Shown piece by piece: positions 3,254 to 9,461 of a DNA stretch of 64,000 nt. The notes under the pieces were generated by a model, which saw nothing but the letters and a program-made list of their open reading frames with translations, was not told the DNA's origin and ran no database searches. Within the stretch, counting starts at the first letter, position 1, and the number at the start of each line of letters is the position of its first letter. The position numbers were made by a program, and so were the translations under genes. Origin of the DNA: Dethiobacter alkaliphilus (lineage in GTDB: Bacteria; Bacillota; Dethiobacteria; DTU022; UBA8154); the NCBI GenBank assembly GCA_016841605.1, contig JAENYV010000003.1:197064-261063 (forward strand), in the 5' to 3' direction.

Positions 3254-3943
3254 TTATGATAATCTTTGAATAATGGAATTTGATGAGAGCTCACCTACGA
3301 AAAGAAAGCTTTCGCGCTCCAGAATATCCGCAAGACAGTGAGCATCTGAAGAAAAAAGATAAGAAATTTTATTATCATGGGAAATTATTCCTGAACAGCT
3401 TTTGGATACTTCCAATGTGTTAAACCCGAGTTCCGGAGGAATAAATCCCAGTTGAGACAAAATGCTGTACGAAGGTCGATCTACATGGGCGGGTACTACC
3501 ACTCCGCCACGTTTTCTAACTTCCAAAACAACTTCTTCGATAGACAAATCAATAGAGGAAATTAACAATTCTCTTTTCTCGCCAACTACCTCATCCCTTT
3601 CATTTATAATTAGCTGATGCCCGAAACGCTGGGGATCGTTTGCCGGCGCCTGAAAATGATGCCTGACGACTGACTCAAACCTGTTAAGGGCTGCCAAATC
3701 AGTAAAATAACAAAGAAGATGAACTTCTTCCCTGCTCTGCACTTCCATCCCCGGGAGAATTAATAATCTAGACCCGGCCGCCGCTATGGCGGCCCCGACA
3801 TTATCGCAACTATTATGATCCGTAATGGCAATGGTATCCAAACCCTTTAGTACTGCCATATTTACAATATTGTTGGGAGTCATATCGTTCTGCGCACAGG
3901 GTGACAGGGCAGAATGAATATGAAGATCAACGGCGATCCTCAC
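3254..3943 (-). CDS. PHP-domain metal-dependent phosphoesterase
   Basis: PHP (polymerase and histidinol phosphatase) fold protein, probably a metal-dependent phosphatase or nuclease acting on a small phosphorylated substrate. Metal-binding motifs appear in order: DLHIHSALSPC at the N-terminus, AITDHNS, a central PAHVDRPSYS and a C-terminal FSSDAHCLADI. I place the start at GTG 3943, 6 bases after a GGGGGGAGAGG ribosome site and 13 bases beyond the upstream stop; an in-frame ATG at 3976 would overlap the upstream gene. It is the last gene of the hydrogenase-like signalling operon, where a PHP protein often accompanies DRTGG proteins. The true substrate is unknown. Confidence 0.85.
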   Translation of the reverse strand: MRIAVDLHIHSALSPCAQNDMTPNNIVNMAVLKGLDTIAITDHNSCDNVGAAIAAAGSRLLILPGMEVQSREEVHLLCYFTDLAALNRFESVVRHHFQAPANDPQRFGHQLIINERDEVVGEKRELLISSIDLSIEEVVLEVRKRGGVVVPAHVDRPSYSILSQLGFIPPELGFNTLEVSKSCSGIISHDNKISYLFSSDAHCLADILERESFLFVGELSSNSIIQRLS

Positions 3944-3956
3944 GGCCTCTCCCCCC

Positions 3957-4298
3957 TCATTCACTGAATATCCCAAAAGAATATAATCTGCCCGACAGTG
4001 TATAGGCAGATAAGGGGCTTGATAAAATTACCACATGTTCCTCTTCCGCCTTGGCGAGAGTCTTTTCGTCCACAGCAATATCCTCCGGTATCATGATACA
4101 GGCCATCTCCAACAGGGTGGCAACGGCAACAATATTAACATGCGTCTGGATGGTAATCCACAGGCTGCTTTTTGAACTTTTTGCCATTACCCTGCTCAAT
4201 AAATCGCCGCAATATACCGAAGATATCTCTCGTTTTAAATGATCTCTTCCCGTTAATACCTTTAAAGATAATTCCTTTACAATTTGTTCCACTATCAT
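3957..4298 (-). CDS. DRTGG-domain protein (second copy)
   Basis: A single DRTGG domain of 113 aa, the regulatory domain also found next to CBS domains and in phosphotransacetylase-type proteins. Features of the fold are the N-terminal helix IVEQIVKELSLKVLTG, the conserved region YCGDLLSRVMAKSSKSSLWIT, and LSSPLSAYTLSGRLYSFGI near the end. No catalytic residues are evident, so it probably binds a ligand or a partner. It overlaps the upstream hydrogenase-like gene by 4 bp, which implies translational coupling. It is about the same length as, and related in pattern to, the DRTGG protein at the head of the same operon. Confidence 0.85.
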   Translation of the reverse strand: MIVEQIVKELSLKVLTGRDHLKREISSVYCGDLLSRVMAKSSKSSLWITIQTHVNIVAVATLLEMACIMIPEDIAVDEKTLAKAEEEHVVILSSPLSAYTLSGRLYSFGIFSE

Positions 4299-5635
4299 TC
4301 CTTAACATCCTCCTCGCTTGTTGTTTCCTTGCCGAGAGGAATTTTTTCAGACAACTCAATCATTTCCTGAGCCAACATTTTAACTTTTTCTTTTAATTTA
4401 AAAATACAGTCCATCTCTGTGGCATATCCCCTGACAATATCCTCTGCCAGGGCCCGACAATTTGGGGAACCGCAGGAACCGCAATCCAATCCGGGCAGTT
4501 GTTCATATATTGTATTCATCTCTTCCATTTTTTTAATTGCCACAGATATATCTTCCGCAAGTTTCATGACAGGCTTGGAAGTAATTTCCGTTTGAAATCT
4601 CCATACGATAGAAGACACCTCTTTTTCCACTTCCTCGCAGGTAAGGGCATTACCTTGAGCGCTGGATTTCAGCTCTCTCACTCTATTTTGCGCTACAAAA
4701 CTGTTCTCAAAAACTAAAGGACCTCCCACACACCCACCCACACAGGAAAGGCCCTCAAAAAAATCCAGATCACTGAGCTTGCCGTTCTCAATTTCTTCAA
4801 GAACTTTAATGACATTATGGATACCGTCCACTGCCAGAAAATTATTTTTGTGCAAAGAACGTCCCTCTCCACCGGCATTGGCCCATCCAACCCCAAACTC
4901 TGTGGCCATATGCAGGACGTCTTCACTTTTTGCCTTTTTTATCTTGCTGCACAAAGGGCCATAAATGTCCATAATGGAAATACAACCATCAACAAAAGAT
5001 TTGTCCATCCCGATAGGATTTCGAACGACGGTCATTTTAGCAGCACAGGGCGTAATAAAGAAAGCCCCCACCTCTTCCGGTTTGACACCCCTTTTTTCAC
5101 AAAAAGTTCTCTTGGCAATCTGAGCGGCAATTTCCATTGGAGACGAAATGGGAATAATATTTTTGATTAATTCTGGGAAACGTACCTGAATTAGCCTTAC
5201 AATGGCCGGACAGGCAGAAGAAATAAGAGGTTTAATCCTTCCCCTATTTTCCTCCATTTCCCTTTTGATAAAGGCTGCGGTATAATCGGCAGCTCTGGCT
5301 ACTTCATACACTTCATCAAACCCCAACATTTTTAAACCGGCAAGAACTTTCCCAAATTTATCCACCTTTTCAAATTGGCCATATAAACTGGGAGCAGGAA
5401 GGGCAATCTTATATTTAAAAGCGTTTATCGATGACAGAGAATCCGTAACTGCTACCTTGGCATGATAGGGACAAACACGTATACACTCGCCACAGTCGAT
5501 ACAGCGTTCACCAATAATTCTGGCCTTACCGTCGGCAAATCGAATGGCTTCTGTTGGGCATCGCTTAATGCAATTTGTACACCCCTTGCACTTTCCCCGA
5601 TCCAGTGTAACTGAATGGTAATACTGCTCCAACAC
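4295..5635 (-). CDS. [FeFe]-hydrogenase-like iron-sulfur protein, putative sensory (group C/D-like)
   Basis: 446-aa protein with an N-terminal 2x[4Fe-4S] ferredoxin domain (Cys16/19/22/26 and 45/48/51/55), an [FeFe]-hydrogenase H-cluster domain and a C-terminal four-cysteine [4Fe-4S] domain (LDCGSCGSPNC, Cys385/388/393, and Cys410). H-cluster cysteine positions are retained: L1 SSACPAI (Cys142), L2 TPCAAK (Cys197) and L3 GLSCVGGC (Cys298 and Cys302). Ala141 occupies the place of the proton-transfer cysteine of catalytic enzymes, and the L2 methionine is Thr; both changes are known in sensory hydrogenases. It is too short for a catalytic HydA with accessory domains. The GTG start follows AGGAGGTGGTTC. 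Its neighbours (ATPase, DRTGG, PHP) support sensing over H2 turnover. Confidence 0.85.
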   Translation of the reverse strand: MLEQYYHSVTLDRGKCKGCTNCIKRCPTEAIRFADGKARIIGERCIDCGECIRVCPYHAKVAVTDSLSSINAFKYKIALPAPSLYGQFEKVDKFGKVLAGLKMLGFDEVYEVARAADYTAAFIKREMEENRGRIKPLISSACPAIVRLIQVRFPELIKNIIPISSPMEIAAQIAKRTFCEKRGVKPEEVGAFFITPCAAKMTVVRNPIGMDKSFVDGCISIMDIYGPLCSKIKKAKSEDVLHMATEFGVGWANAGGEGRSLHKNNFLAVDGIHNVIKVLEEIENGKLSDLDFFEGLSCVGGCVGGPLVFENSFVAQNRVRELKSSAQGNALTCEEVEKEVSSIVWRFQTEITSKPVMKLAEDISVAIKKMEEMNTIYEQLPGLDCGSCGSPNCRALAEDIVRGYATEMDCIFKLKEKVKMLAQEMIELSEKIPLGKETTSEEDVKE

Positions 5636-5707
5636 GAACCACCTCCTTTCAAAATTATAAAATATAAAATAATAAGATATTATTAATTTAAACTACTTTT
5701 AAATATT

Positions 5708-6145
5708 TTATGATAGATTAAAGGACAACTCTACTTCCGTTCCCTTTCCCTCTTCAGATCGAATAACAAATCGATCTGCACACCGTTTCATATTGGGAAG
5801 CCCCATCCCTGCTCCAAATCCAAGTTCCCGCGCCGTATCCGGCGCTGTGGAATATCCTTCCTTCATGGCGAGCTCAATGTCCTTGATGCCCGGGCCGTCA
5901 TCCTGAGCAATAATAGTAATTACCTTCGGATTAATCTTAAAAATTAAGCGGCCTCCGTTTGAATGAATCACCAGGTTCATTTCAGCCTCGTACGAGGCTA
6001 TTGCTACTTTTTTAACCAGAGCAGCATCTATTCCCAATTGTTTGAGATTATTTTTTATTTGTCCCGCCGCTTCTCCGGCAAGAGTAAAATTTCCCGCCTC
6101 AATGGAGTAATATTGGCACATCGTTACATTATCTGTTGTCTCCAT
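5708..6145 (-). CDS. RsbW/SpoIIAB-like anti-sigma-type ATPase (HATPase_c)
   Basis: Small (145 aa) GHKL-fold ATPase resembling serine-protein kinases of the RsbW family. The ATP-binding signatures are visible: SYEAEMNLVIHSNGG (N-box), DDGPGIKDIELA (G1), and GFGAGMGLPNMKRCAD (G2). There is no sensor or dimerisation domain, so it probably needs partner proteins in the same operon. The ATG at 6145 is fused to the upstream stop as TAATG, and 72 bp separate it from the hydrogenase-like gene. Known relatives phosphorylate or sequester anti-sigma antagonists; its partner here is unknown. In this context it would carry the hydrogenase-derived signal onward. Confidence 0.88.
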   Translation of the reverse strand: METTDNVTMCQYYSIEAGNFTLAGEAAGQIKNNLKQLGIDAALVKKVAIASYEAEMNLVIHSNGGRLIFKINPKVITIIAQDDGPGIKDIELAMKEGYSTAPDTARELGFGAGMGLPNMKRCADRFVIRSEEGKGTEVELSFNLS

Positions 6146-6492
6146 TATAGCACCTCACCCCTGAGGCCGGACTGATAAAGCAGCCCACAGGCTACAAACA
6201 ATGAATGACGTGTCATCAAAACAGCGATATTCCTGTCGGCAGCCATTTGTATAATCTCCTCCGACGGCCTTTTACCACGCACAAAGACAATAGCAGCAAT
6301 ATCCATCATTTCCGCGGTTCGTATAACATGTGGGTTGGTTAGTCCTGTCAGTAAAATCGTATGATCTTTAACAAAAGCCAACACATCACTCATCAAATCA
6401 GAACCGCATGCGGAAAGGATATCTTTATTAAGCATATCTTCTCCACAAAAAAGATCCGCTTCTAAAATATTAATAATTTCTTGAATAGTCAA
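6145..6492 (-). CDS. DRTGG-domain protein (first copy)
   Basis: 115-aa single-domain protein at the head of the sensor operon. The pattern MTIQEIINILEADLFCG, then ACGSDLMSDVLAFVKDHTILLTG, then MTRHSLFVACGLLYQSGL matches DRTGG domains. It has no evident catalytic residues. A purine-rich ribosome site (TAGGAGGT) lies just upstream of the ATG. Its stop overlaps the start of the ATPase gene, so the two are translationally coupled. It shares the domain with the copy at 3957-4298, giving two DRTGG proteins per operon, possibly forming a heterodimer; this is inference. Confidence 0.85.
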   Translation of the reverse strand: MTIQEIINILEADLFCGEDMLNKDILSACGSDLMSDVLAFVKDHTILLTGLTNPHVIRTAEMMDIAAIVFVRGKRPSEEIIQMAADRNIAVLMTRHSLFVACGLLYQSGLRGEVL

Positions 6493-6829
6493 GAGGATAG
6501 ACCTCCTATAATCAAATTTGCCGCATCCAAAAGTCTGTATTCTTTTTACCGTGCTGAAATCTTGAATTATTTATTTACTTTTTTATTTCTACGATGAACG
6601 ATAAATCCCTGCAGGCATTTTTTCTAGATATTTTTTTTGCTTCAAAAAAATATTATTTGATGTTATAATGTATGCAAAATTACATAACAGCTGACCTGTT
6701 GGTTACTTTTTACGGCAGGAAGGTATGATCCTTTTTAGCTATTCCTGAGATAAGGGGGGAAATGTGTTCTCTGAAGATAAGGGAAAAGCATAACCCTGCT
6801 TTTTCTTAGAGAGAAGGCAGGATTTTTAA
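6493..6829. promoter_or_regulatory. divergent promoter region and structured leader
   Basis: This 337-bp divergent region serves the sensor operon (minus) and the TM1266-type gene (plus). For the plus direction a TATAAT box lies at 6664-6669 with TTGCTT at 6638-6643 (21-bp spacing, long). The RNA that would follow can fold as CCUGUUG...CGGCAGG (6695-6719), or as CAGGAA...UUCCUG (6716-6747), and ends with a terminator-like hairpin. The same element GGCAGGA occurs at 6714-6720 and 6816-6822, so alternative pairings with the CCUG segments are possible. I do not recognise a known riboswitch class. Confidence 0.5.
6795..6828 (+). terminator. terminator-like hairpin in the leader
   Basis: CCTGC (6795-6799) pairs with GCAGG (6817-6821), extended by wobble-containing pairs between TTTTT and AGAAG, and is followed by ATTTTTAATT. 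The hairpin ends just before the coding region at 6830, so it can act as an attenuator of the regulator-ABC operon rather than a gene-end terminator. Confidence 0.55.
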
Positions 6830-7102
6830 TTGAAGGGGGGTAACAGCATCGAAACGCGTATGGGAATCGTGGGAATTTTGGTTCAGGAAAAAAATGAACC
6901 GACAATAGCACGCATAAATCACATTTTAAATGAACATTCCGGCGTTATCGTAGGGCGGATGGGCTTACCGTACAGGGAAAAAGATGTGGCGGTTATATCT
7001 TTAATTGTCGACGGAACTACTGATGAAATTGGAGCTATGACGGGTAAGTTGGGCAATATTCCGGAAGTTAAAGTTAAGTCTGCCTTTATTAAAAAGAAAT
7101 AA
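6830..7102 (+). CDS. TM1266-type putative iron-only hydrogenase system regulator
   Basis: Small (90 aa) ACT/NikR-C-like protein of the family named 'iron-only hydrogenase system regulator' and typified by Thermotoga TM1266. The conserved body is clear: GIVGILVQEKNEP, INHILNEHSGVIVGRMGLPY, and SLIVDGTTDEIGAMTGKLG. It probably binds a ligand as a dimer. The start is uncertain: TTG at 6830 is preceded by AAGGCAGGA; the ATG at 6860 has poor spacing; and the ATC at 6848, which aligns with the usual METR start, lies 7 bases after AAGGGGGGT. It is followed within 30 bp by an ABC transporter, and lies divergent to the sensory hydrogenase operon. Confidence 0.88.
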   Translation: MKGGNSIETRMGIVGILVQEKNEPTIARINHILNEHSGVIVGRMGLPYREKDVAVISLIVDGTTDEIGAMTGKLGNIPEVKVKSAFIKKK

Positions 7103-7128
7103 ACGATGTGTATAAAGGGGGAAGAATA

Positions 7129-8142
7129 TTGGCAAGAAAAATTTGGCTTTGCTTATCTCTTGTCATTATGCTTTTTGTCCTGGTTGGATGCGGAGGAACA
7201 AGCCCTGTGGATCAACCCGGACCGAATGAGGGAGCAACAGAAGCAACAAATGAAGACGAAATACCGAATGATGGAAAACCAATAAATATTGCCGTATTAA
7301 AAGGCCCGACAGGTATGGGAATTGTTAAACTTATGGGGGAAGAAAACTATAATATTCAAGTTCTGGGAAGCCCGGATGACCTGATCGGCAAAATTATTAC
7401 CGGTGAAGTTGACCTGGCTGCAGTGCCGCCCAATCTTGCTGCCATTCTTTACCAAAACACGAGACAAAAAATTAAACTGCTCGCCGTTCATACCCTCGGG
7501 GCTTTATATATACTGGAAAATGGCGAAAATATTACGTCACTGGAAGATCTCCAAGGAAGGACATTATATGTCAGCGGTAAAGGCGCGACACCTGATTATG
7601 TAATTCAATACTTGCTGAAAGAACATGGATTAGTTCCCGGAAAAGACGTTACTCTTGATTACATCTCTCAGCATACGGATCTCGCGGCAATTATGGCCGC
7701 GGGACAGCATGACCTTGCTTTACTGCCTCAGCCTCATGTAACAAGTGTTCTCATGCAAAATAAGGATGTTAGAATTGCTCTTGATTTAAACAAAGAATGG
7801 AAAAATGTCCTAAATAAAGAGCTTACCATGGGAGTCCTCATCGGACAAAAAGATTTTATCGACAATAATCAAAACACTTTAGTCGCTTTTCTGCAAGAAT
7901 ATGAGCAGTCTATTCAATTTGTGAATAACAATATGGCGGAAGCAGCAGAACTTATCGCGCAAAACGGAATTCTGCCGAATGCTGAAATTGCCGAAAAAGC
8001 CATTCCTTACTGCAATATTGTCTATATTGATGCTCAGCAAGGCAAAGCATATTTAGAAAACTTTTACAGCATACTATATGACTTTAATCCTGACTCAATC
8101 GGGGGAAAAATTCCGGATGATGAATTTTACTACTCACAATAA
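7129..8142 (+). CDS. NMT1/THI5-like ABC transporter substrate-binding lipoprotein
   Basis: Extracytoplasmic solute-binding lipoprotein of the NMT1/THI5/SsuA superfamily. The TTG at 7129 follows AAAGGGGGAAG and begins a lipoprotein signal with lipobox LVGC; a Gly/Glu/Asn-rich linker follows. The binding domain contains INIAVLKGPTGMGIVKLM, VDLAAVPPNLAAIL and GRTLYVSGKGATPDYVI, typical of proteins binding small planar or sulfonate-like ligands. About 337 aa. Its gene is followed by overlapping permease and ATPase genes, so this is a complete importer. The ligand is unknown; linkage to a hydrogenase-system regulator hints at a cofactor precursor or metal-chelate, which is inference. Confidence 0.88.
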   Translation: MARKIWLCLSLVIMLFVLVGCGGTSPVDQPGPNEGATEATNEDEIPNDGKPINIAVLKGPTGMGIVKLMGEENYNIQVLGSPDDLIGKIITGEVDLAAVPPNLAAILYQNTRQKIKLLAVHTLGALYILENGENITSLEDLQGRTLYVSGKGATPDYVIQYLLKEHGLVPGKDVTLDYISQHTDLAAIMAAGQHDLALLPQPHVTSVLMQNKDVRIALDLNKEWKNVLNKELTMGVLIGQKDFIDNNQNTLVAFLQEYEQSIQFVNNNMAEAAELIAQNGILPNAEIAEKAIPYCNIVYIDAQQGKAYLENFYSILYDFNPDSIGGKIPDDEFYYSQ

Positions 8143-8890
8143 AAAATTTCTTTTTAATCTCGTCGCCATCCTTTTCTGGCTTGCCGTCTGGCAGGCCATT
8201 TATCTTGTTGTGCAAAATAATATTTTAATCCCTGCCCCCCTTGAAGTGTTCTCTCGTCTCAGAGAGCTGGTTTTACTGAAATCTTTTTGGCTTAATATCA
8301 TTTTTACTATCTACAGAGTTTTTGTGGGAGTCTGTCTGGCGCTTGCTCTGGGTACTTTTTTAGGTATTTTATCAGGAGTAAACCGCTTCTGTTATGAACT
8401 GCTCTCACCTCTGGTGGTTGCCGTTAAATCTACACCTATTATGTCCTTCATCATTGTTGCCCTGGTGTGGTTCGGCTCGCAAAACGTTCCCATCTTTATT
8501 TGTTTTTTGATTGCTTTTCCCATAATTTGGACGAACATACAAGAAGGAATTACCAATGTAGATAGAAAACTGCTGGAAATGGCCGCAATCTTTCAGGTTT
8601 CCAAACTCATGATCCTCAAAAATATCTATCTGCCGGAAATAAAGCCCTATTTTATTTCCGGGTTTCTAACCATTATCGGCCTTGGTTGGAAGGCTACCGT
8701 AACCGCAGAGGTCTTAAGCCTGCCTGTCCATGCCATTGGAAGCAGGCTTTATGATGCCAGGGTTTTCATTAATGCTGTCGATTTGTTTGCTTTGACCCTG
8801 GCGATTATCGGAATCAGCATGCTCCTTGAAAATATTATTATTAGATTATTTGTCAACTTGCGGGGGAGGAAAATTAACAGTGCCAATTGA
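8117..8890 (+). CDS. ABC transporter permease (SsuC/ThiX-like)
   Basis: Integral membrane subunit with about six hydrophobic segments of the binding-protein-dependent transport family. The EAA-type cytoplasmic loop is seen as LEMAAIFQVSKLMILKNIYLPEI, which docks to the ATPase. The start is ATG 8117 or 8120, 11-14 bases after GGGGGA at 8101-8105; both lie within the 3' end of the lipoprotein gene, so translation is coupled. About 257 aa, normal for the family. It ends 11 bp inside the downstream ATPase gene. Confidence 0.88.
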   Translation: MMNFTTHNKKFLFNLVAILFWLAVWQAIYLVVQNNILIPAPLEVFSRLRELVLLKSFWLNIIFTIYRVFVGVCLALALGTFLGILSGVNRFCYELLSPLVVAVKSTPIMSFIIVALVWFGSQNVPIFICFLIAFPIIWTNIQEGITNVDRKLLEMAAIFQVSKLMILKNIYLPEIKPYFISGFLTIIGLGWKATVTAEVLSLPVHAIGSRLYDARVFINAVDLFALTLAIIGISMLLENIIIRLFVNLRGRKINSAN

Positions 8891-9461
8891 AATTAAAAAT
8901 TTAAACAAATCATATAACGGCCTGCAAGTAATTAAAAACTATCATTTTACCTTTCAAGAAGGCAAGATCTATTGTCTCTATGGACCTTCGGGATGCGGAA
9001 AAACGACTCTTCTGCATATTATTGCAGGAATTCTTCCCTTTAATAGCGGCACAATTACGGGAACGGAAAAAAAAAGAATTGCCGTAGTTTTTCAGGAAGA
9101 CCGCTTATTGCCCTGGCTTACGGCAGAGGAGAATATAAAATTTGTTCTGGGCAACAAACATTTTGACGCAGGAAAATACCTGGAAGTCGTGGGTCTCAAG
9201 GAATTTAAAAAATATCATCCCCATCAGTTAAGCGGAGGGATGAAGAGAAGAGTAGCGATAGCGAGAGCACTCGCTTATCATGGTCAAGTCCTGCTGATGG
9301 ATGAACCTTTTAAGGGGATTGACGAAGAAGTTAAAAGATATATTATGGATAGCATTTTAAAAGAAAAAGAGCAAATCGTTATTTTCTCCACACATAATCT
9401 GCAAGAAGCCGCCTACATGGCTCATGAAACAATAAAATTTACTAATAAAATACACAACTAA
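8880..9461 (+). CDS. ABC transporter ATP-binding protein
   Basis: Nucleotide-binding subunit that powers the importer. Seen: Walker A GPSGCGKTT, Q-loop VFQEDRLLPWLT, signature LSGGMKRR, Walker B VLLMDEPFKGID, and H-loop STHNLQEA. GTG at 8880 is preceded by GGGGGAGGA and gives about 193 aa, shorter than the usual 240-260 of SsuB/TauB relatives, mainly because the C-terminal extension is absent. All catalytic motifs are intact. It is the last gene of the operon and converges with acpS. Confidence 0.9.
   Translation: MPIEIKNLNKSYNGLQVIKNYHFTFQEGKIYCLYGPSGCGKTTLLHIIAGILPFNSGTITGTEKKRIAVVFQEDRLLPWLTAEENIKFVLGNKHFDAGKYLEVVGLKEFKKYHPHQLSGGMKRRVAIARALAYHGQVLLMDEPFKGIDEEVKRYIMDSILKEKEQIVIFSTHNLQEAAYMAHETIKFTNKIHN

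Follow-up and report, generated by a model that had tools for sequence, protein, structure and literature searches.

Introduction

The closest described relative of the system treated here is TamHydS, a group D (M2e) [FeFe]-hydrogenase from Thermoanaerobacter mathranii that was characterised between 2020 and 2026 (PMC8163306, PMC10407848, PMC13104023). In the available parts of those papers, H2 is reported to trigger a secondary-structure change in TamHydS (PMC13104023), its gene is flanked by one for a histidine-kinase-like ATPase and the onward route of the signal is posed as a question (PMC8163306), and the signal output of group D is treated as open, with neither a PAS domain nor a known partner. 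At the level of gene order, the accessible text of Carere et al. 2012 (PMC3561251) lists group D M2e genes that precede those of trimeric bifurcating hydrogenases, in many cases with a histidine/serine kinase in between, and that of PMC3608648 gives the layout M2e gene–kinase–trimeric hydrogenase for all Thermoanaerobacter. Here we analyse a five-gene unit encoding such a hydrogenase, which we call HydS, in a 64,000-nucleotide stretch of a Dethiobacter alkaliphilus genome (contig JAENYV010000003.1, positions 197,064 to 261,063; "the window" below). The unit occupies window positions 3254-6492 on the minus strand; its five open reading frames encode, in order, a DRTGG-domain protein (DRTGG1), a GHKL ATPase (HATP1), HydS, a second DRTGG protein (DRTGG2) and a PHP-domain protein. 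The reading we favour, with a probability of roughly 0.5, is that the unit is a cytoplasmic H2/redox-sensing kinase module gated by HydS.

HydS is a group D hydrogenase

The four cysteines of HydS that bind the H-cluster (C142, C197, C298 and C302) are invariant across 84 orthologues, taken from loci that comprise the best 80 of 494 relatives in a scan of the whole collection plus four relatives from a genome search. Position 141, at which group A has its proton-transfer cysteine, is Ala in 81 of the 84 and Ser in 3, and cysteine in none; position 195 in the L2 motif, occupied by Met353 in group A, is Thr in 59 and Ser in 25. Pfam resolves an N-terminal 2x[4Fe-4S] region, Fe_hyd_lg_C and a C-terminal FeS domain (PF04060), and gives no match to a PAS domain. 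A preliminary description of this DNA, made without database searches, had pointed out the full set of H-cluster cysteines, Ala141, the Thr in L2 and the extra C-terminal [4Fe-4S] domain, and each of these is confirmed.

That description also proposed a phylogenetic check against the catalytic group A enzymes. In a maximum-likelihood tree that included group A, B and C proteins from the window genome and five other genomes, HydS sits in a group D clade of 19 rows with 100/100 support. Group C is the sister of D (98/91), group B lies outside C+D, and group A is set apart on a long branch (100/100). The group D clade includes the Thermoanaerobacter wiegelii orthologue of TamHydS (L066; L numbers denote individual loci), which is 57% identical to HydS and carries, at the same numbers, all nine TamHydS residues from PMC13104023 (C20, R30, R32, K35, K58, D378, C379, D403 and C404). 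The shared clade, the identity and the matching residue numbers together make HydS an orthologue of a characterised protein.

HydS has the features that define group D: a separate clade, retained H-cluster cysteines, a non-Cys residue at the C299 position, Ser/Thr at M353, the 2x[4Fe-4S] region, the CX2CX4CX16C motif, no PAS domain and a bifurcating hydrogenase encoded nearby. It lacks those of group A (the proton-transfer Cys, Met353 and a place in the A clade) and those of group C (a PAS or kinase/phosphatase-linked C-terminal region and a place in the C clade), and the tree rules out both placements. As for group B, the best NCBIfam score was to the B1 model, far below its cut-off, consistent with the position of B in the tree. 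The preliminary description had spoken of signalling hydrogenases of groups C and D; the sensory type stands, and the lack of a PAS domain and the Ser/Thr at M353 narrow it to D. These sequence features support a predicted function for HydS as a sensory-type, group D (M2e) hydrogenase. The window genome encodes the HydF maturase (569 bits), which is only permissive for H-cluster assembly.

The same genome has two further, group C sensory-type hydrogenases (L037:10592-12268 and L038:7757-9475), each followed by a SpoIIE-type phosphatase-like gene; in L037 a Rex-like gene also precedes the hydrogenase and a hydABC set follows downstream. Phosphatase-linked and kinase-linked H2 sensors could oppose each other in one cell.

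Conservation and genomic linkage

Among the 68 loci for which both flanks are available, HATP1 is present in all 68, DRTGG1 in 63, and DRTGG2 and PHP in 62 each. All five genes occur in the same order in 59 of them (L053 included), so the arrangement is far beyond chance. Co-occurrence was counted by profile searches with strict cut-offs in 249 genomes sampled from the phylum, after generic [FeFe]/ferredoxin matches in 60 relatives, most of which were hits to ferredoxins, had been dropped for counting the unit: the DRTGG family was found in 91 of 92 genomes with a group D HydS vs 9 of 157 without one, counts that are not corrected for relatedness. The HATP1 profile matches 98 of the 249 genomes.

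As a rule, hydABC follows the unit immediately downstream. Where at least 7 kb of downstream sequence is available, 47 of 62 loci continue into NuoE and HydA of a bifurcating hydrogenase, usually in the order NuoE, a second HATPase (HATP2), a Trx-like protein, HydB and HydA. In the window genome, hydABC lies on the same strand (C11:186878-190830), and the operon including HATP2 (L036:7834-8382) spans C11:186878-191381. HATP2 accompanies the unit also in loci that have no hydABC next to it (L162, L167, L173, L197, L199 and L200) and is therefore best counted as a sixth component. The usual position upstream of hydABC and this sixth gene were both missed in the preliminary description, as were the published layout and the alternative sensor described below. 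In the window genome, the five-gene unit and hydABC are separated by genes for a formate channel (focA), an OB protein and a set of formate dehydrogenase components; in relatives the two are directly adjacent. The gene for the formate dehydrogenase catalytic subunit (L036:9247-11943, corresponding to G000:C11:192246-194942) lies just outside the window, beside NuoE/NuoF-like genes, and has an in-frame TGA at the selenocysteine position (CARL-U-HAPT).

Reduced versions also occur. Three minimal loci (L100, L101 and L105) have only HATP1 and HydS, and two others (L165 and L166) have only DRTGG1, HATP1, DRTGG2 and HATP2. In L163, an 80-residue remnant of HydS (L163:5158-5400) lies between intact DRTGG1 and DRTGG2 genes, together with a PHP remnant; here the unit is decaying, and hydABC lies downstream of it.

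Natural fusions

Among the first four genes, each neighbouring pair is encoded as a single polypeptide in at least one locus. DRTGG1 is fused to HATP1 in L174, L175, L176, L177 and L182 (about 270 residues), HATP1 to HydS in L171 (626 residues), and DRTGG2 to the C-terminus of HydS in L008, L009, L088, L183 and L184 (about 565 residues). These fusions are evolutionary evidence that the products act in one complex and, with the conservation of the unit, support the view that all five work together. The HydS–DRTGG2 fusions place DRTGG2 beside the C-terminal [4Fe-4S] domain of HydS. For one of them, the AlphaFold2 (AF2) model has a mean predicted local distance difference test score (pLDDT) of 87 and a predicted template modelling score of 0.74: block means are mostly above 90 within HydS, the linker is disordered and of low confidence, and the DRTGG part is weaker.

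In one clade (L174, L175, L177 and L182), a Rex-type repressor gene lies directly upstream of, or overlaps, the DRTGG1–HATP1 fusion gene (Pfam-confirmed in L174).

Replacement of the hydrogenase by CBS domains

In nine loci, a tandem CBS pair is fused to HATP1. HydS is absent from seven of these (L161, L162, L167, L168, L197, L198 and L200) and present in L173 and L199. Four of the HydS-less loci (L161, L162, L167 and L168, with CBS–HATP1 proteins of 303-324 residues that have the CBS pair at the N-terminus) were found by inspecting genomes that have DRTGG1 without HydS, and the CBS match has a Pfam E-value of about 1e-31 in the five CBS–HATP1 loci scanned. CBS forms appear in two places in a HATP1 tree: an eight-member clade (97/95) and L168, which is on a long branch of unsure position.

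The genomic partners of the CBS modules vary. That of L168 is linked to hydABC, and those of L161, L173, L198 and L199 are linked to rnf (RnfC and RnfD were Pfam-confirmed in L161 and L173). DUF134 genes are linked to those of L167 and L200, and those of L162 and L197 have no obvious linked operon. L173 and L199 have a group D HydS module with CBS–HATP1 directly upstream of rnf rather than hydABC. Together with the natural fusions, the replacement of the hydrogenase by a second type of sensor suggests a plug-in signalling module with a putative output.

HATP1, PHP and the DRTGG proteins

HATP1 looks active and kinase-competent, judging from its N, G1 and G2 boxes: E53, N57, D82, G84, G86 and G109-G115 are invariant in 22 aligned orthologues. 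It has the fold of RsbW and SpoIIAB, GHKL with these boxes and the catalytic Glu, and its closest solved relative is SpoIIAB (E 3e-5). Its score against NCBIfam spIIAB is 53 bits, below the cut-off of 135, and neither Pfam nor the locus survey finds a STAS antagonist or sigma factor gene in the five-gene unit. HATP1 should not, then, be filed as RsbW or SpoIIAB: of the "RsbW-like ATPase" in the preliminary description, the superfamily and fold survive and the pathway does not, since the link is at superfamily level and the unit has no STAS partner gene. A two-component system was rejected as well, the unit being without a DHp domain, receiver or response regulator.

In PHP, the metal-ligand residues H19, H21, D53, H54, E78, H86 and H164 are kept in at least 95% of orthologues, and D211 and H213 in 85-95%. 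NCBIfam assigns it to no subfamily, all matches being far below cut-off.

For DRTGG1, the AF2 model (pLDDT 91.7) matches best, by Foldseek, the DRTGG protein AF1212 (2ioj) and the CBS-DRTGG region of a Clostridium perfringens pyrophosphatase (3l2b); the HPr kinase N-domain comes next. Of 202 DRTGG domains of both types, from HydS or CBS modules, 199 have D32, 201 have S35 and 200 have T49; in the model, helix 2 spans residues 34-40, with S35 at its beginning. The profile alignment does not show this DxxS motif in AF1212. R72-G73-K74 and T94 are kept in DRTGG1 and mostly lost from DRTGG2. SpoIIAB-type GHKL kinases phosphorylate a serine of STAS proteins, and the position of S35 recalls that serine. 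We therefore propose, tentatively and by analogy, that S35 may be the phospho-acceptor of HATP1; we would sooner bet against this version of the module than for it.

Gene layout and neighbourhood

The preliminary description had located the five genes correctly, and Pfam matches above curated cut-offs confirm the family of every product (Table 1). It had counted five gene boundaries; five genes give four. The 72-base gap it mentioned is real and lies between HATP1 and HydS; DRTGG1 and HATP1 overlap by 1 base, HydS and DRTGG2 by 4 bases, and DRTGG2 and PHP either overlap by 20 bases (TTG start) or are separated by 13 (GTG start). The five genes form an apparent, widespread operon. Pattern scans of the region for promoters and terminators gave matches no commoner than in shuffles, and no Rfam family was found in the window.

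Divergent from the unit, at window 6830-7102, is a gene for a TM1266-family "iron-only hydrogenase system regulator". Only close relatives (L039) share this arrangement, apart from a more distant copy in L112. Neither TM1266 nor Rex is tenable as a general output, TM1266 being confined to close kin and Rex to some clades. Beside TM1266, window 7108-9461 encodes an apparent ABC importer (an NMT1/THI5-like substrate-binding protein, a permease-like and an ATP-binding-protein-like open reading frame), at which no riboswitch was found.

Table 1. Features of the five-gene unit, in window coordinates
Feature	Position	Strand	Description and basis
DRTGG1 ribosome-binding site AGGAGGT	6501..6507	-	canonical site, read from sequence; precedes TTG start
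DRTGG1	6145..6492	-	115 aa, TTG start; stand-alone DRTGG domain; PF07085 31.3 bits (cut-off 25.2)
HATP1, GHKL ATPase / putative Ser-Thr kinase	5708..6145	-	145 aa; PF02518 36.2 bits, PF13581 34.3 bits
HydS, group D (M2e) [FeFe]-hydrogenase	4295..5635	-	446 aa; PF02906 130.8 bits, PF04060 46.8 bits
HydS Ala141 (proton-transfer Cys position) and Cys142 (H-cluster ligand)	5210..5215	-	sequence, orthologue alignment
HydS L2 motif Thr195-Pro-Cys197 (Thr at M353 position; Cys an H-cluster ligand)	5045..5053	-	
HydS L3 motif Cys298 to Cys302 (H-cluster ligands)	4730..4744	-	sequence, orthologue alignment
HydS C-terminal [4Fe-4S] domain, C385x2C388x4C393x16C410	4406..4483	-	PF04060; cysteines invariant
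DRTGG2	3957..4298	-	113 aa; PF07085 28.7 bits
PHP-domain hydrolase	3254..3976	-	240 aa from TTG; PF02811 29.8 bits
PHP alternative start	GTG at 3943	-	also possible

Proposed mechanism and alternatives

In the HydS-gated kinase module that we favour, HydS would be the input and HATP1 a kinase under its control; the two DRTGG proteins would be partners of HATP1, probably as substrates or ligand-binding regulators, and PHP and, in most genomes, HATP2 would complete the set. H2 would reduce the H-cluster and an N-terminal [4Fe-4S] cluster, leading to a conformational change in HydS of the kind measured for TamHydS. This would alter the activity of HATP1, which would phosphorylate the invariant DxxS serine at the start of DRTGG helix 2, much as GHKL kinases act on the STAS serine. 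The phosphorylation state of the DRTGG proteins might then tune the synthesis or activity of neighbouring ferredoxin/NAD(H) enzymes (HydABC or Rnf), and PHP might dephosphorylate them or target a nucleotide ligand, so that the DRTGG and PHP proteins would be output modules, as the preliminary description had them. In the CBS versions, adenylate charge could be read alongside, or in place of, H2. In its broadest form, which we consider doubtful, the proposal would be that anaerobic Bacillota have an undescribed sensor-swappable module: its GHKL kinase would be driven by a group D hydrogenase (for H2), a CBS pair (for adenylates) or the two together, and would phosphorylate stand-alone DRTGG proteins at the DxxS serine instead of STAS proteins, so setting how much HydABC or Rnf is present or how active it is.

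Several points weigh against a kinase module of this kind. The unit contains no conserved transcription factor, STAS protein or response regulator; Rex adjoins it only in certain clades (L065, L163, L168 and L174), and TM1266 lies beside it only in L006, L039 and L112. The lack of DRTGG genes in the three minimal loci means that HydS and HATP1 do not strictly require them, and shared ancestry among the genomes remains in the co-occurrence counts. The kinase activity of HATP1 and the phosphorylation of DRTGG are putative, being read from motifs, and the main alternative for the conserved S35 and T49 is that they could line a nucleotide pocket. TamHydS itself is reported, in the available part of PMC8163306, to turn over H2 slowly, which makes a catalytic role possible.

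Among the alternatives, the one that survives best is that the module acts post-translationally, gated by redox or energy state, on the assembly or activity of large Fe-S flavoenzymes (HydABC, Rnf), with chaperone-like GHKL ATPases and with DRTGG and PHP proteins that handle a nucleotide or cofactor. The position of the unit directly upstream of hydABC in those 47 of 62 loci, or of rnf in L173, L199, L161 and L198, would fit such a role, as would the location of HATP2 inside the hydABC operon, the lack of a conserved transcription factor and the fact that the DRTGG domains of CBS-pyrophosphatases belong to nucleotide-regulated regions. Stand-alone copies with no such enzyme adjoining (L162 and L197) and the single-domain, SpoIIAB-like rather than Hsp90-like architecture of HATP1 make us regard it as rather unlikely.

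Classical partner switching, in which HATP1, as an anti-sigma factor or switch kinase, would target STAS proteins and sigma factors encoded elsewhere and the DRTGG proteins would be scaffolds or antagonists, draws on the resemblance of HATP1 to SpoIIAB (including the sub-threshold spIIAB score), and the SpoIIE-like genes beside the group C hydrogenases of the window genome are candidates for the opposing phosphatase arm; with no STAS or sigma gene in the unit and the kinase genetically tied to DRTGG instead, we find it improbable. About equally improbable is the idea that HydS works as a slow catalytic hydrogenase or relays electrons (poising ferredoxin, for example) and that its neighbours are merely co-transcribed hyd regulators: the N-terminal ferredoxin-like domain is intact and TamHydS catalyses reversible H+/H2 conversion, but the proton-path Cys is replaced in 84 of 84 orthologues, the rates of TamHydS are low and its properties sensor-like according to the accessible sections of PMC8163306, and the fusions of HydS to a kinase-type ATPase (L171) and to DRTGG2, like its replacement by CBS domains, better fit an input role.

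Comparison with known systems

The group D hydrogenase and its place upstream of a bifurcating hydABC, with a kinase between, were already known (2012-2013). Later papers cite Calusinska et al. 2010 for this layout. New here are the conservation of the full unit, the co-occurrence with DRTGG, the natural fusions, the CBS swap including its rnf linkage, and the near-invariant DxxS35 and Thr49; a literature search that left out most subscription journals found no publication describing the DRTGG or PHP genes of the unit. The fusions name direct partners of HydS, HATP1 on its N-terminal side and DRTGG2 on its C-terminal side, and the CBS swap makes the hydrogenase an input domain within a broader module that is linked to Rnf as well. 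The relatives thus reveal how group D sensors may pass on their signal, turning a vague putative sensor into a matter for simple tests in tractable hosts, with relevance to the control of H2 output in industrially relevant clostridia.

Compared with TamHydS, the window genome differs in having formate-channel and formate-dehydrogenase genes between the unit and hydABC, and DRTGG, PHP, fusions and CBS swapping are absent from the available parts of the TamHydS papers. The unit resembles the Cthe_0335, Athe_1292 and Teth39_1463 loci (PMC3561251; PMC3608648) in its order of sensory M2e gene, kinase gene and hydABC; those reports, as far as their accessible sections go, note only the kinase and hydABC, and the full unit and the fusions are not analysed there. 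Group C hydrogenases of the TmHydS type are likewise putative sensors encoded upstream of hydABC, with a C-terminal FeS domain and changes around the active site. Their C-terminus bears an additional region, which is PAS in the published members, and they are linked to a SpoIIE-type phosphatase or histidine kinase; HydS has neither and falls outside the C clade. The CBS-DRTGG inorganic pyrophosphatases (3l2b, 3l31) have the same DRTGG fold in functional association with adenylate-binding CBS domains; there, both lie in one polypeptide and regulate the pyrophosphatase, whereas here DRTGG stands alone, CBS domains, if any, are on the ATPase, and the DxxS motif appears to be specific to the present module. 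Finally, HATP1 resembles SpoIIAB, RsbW and RsbT in being compact, with a single ATPase domain that has N, G1 and G2 boxes and a catalytic Glu, and it differs from them in its longer insert before the G2 box (ELGFGAGMGLPN), in having no STAS substrate gene and in its linkage to DRTGG proteins and a hydrogenase.

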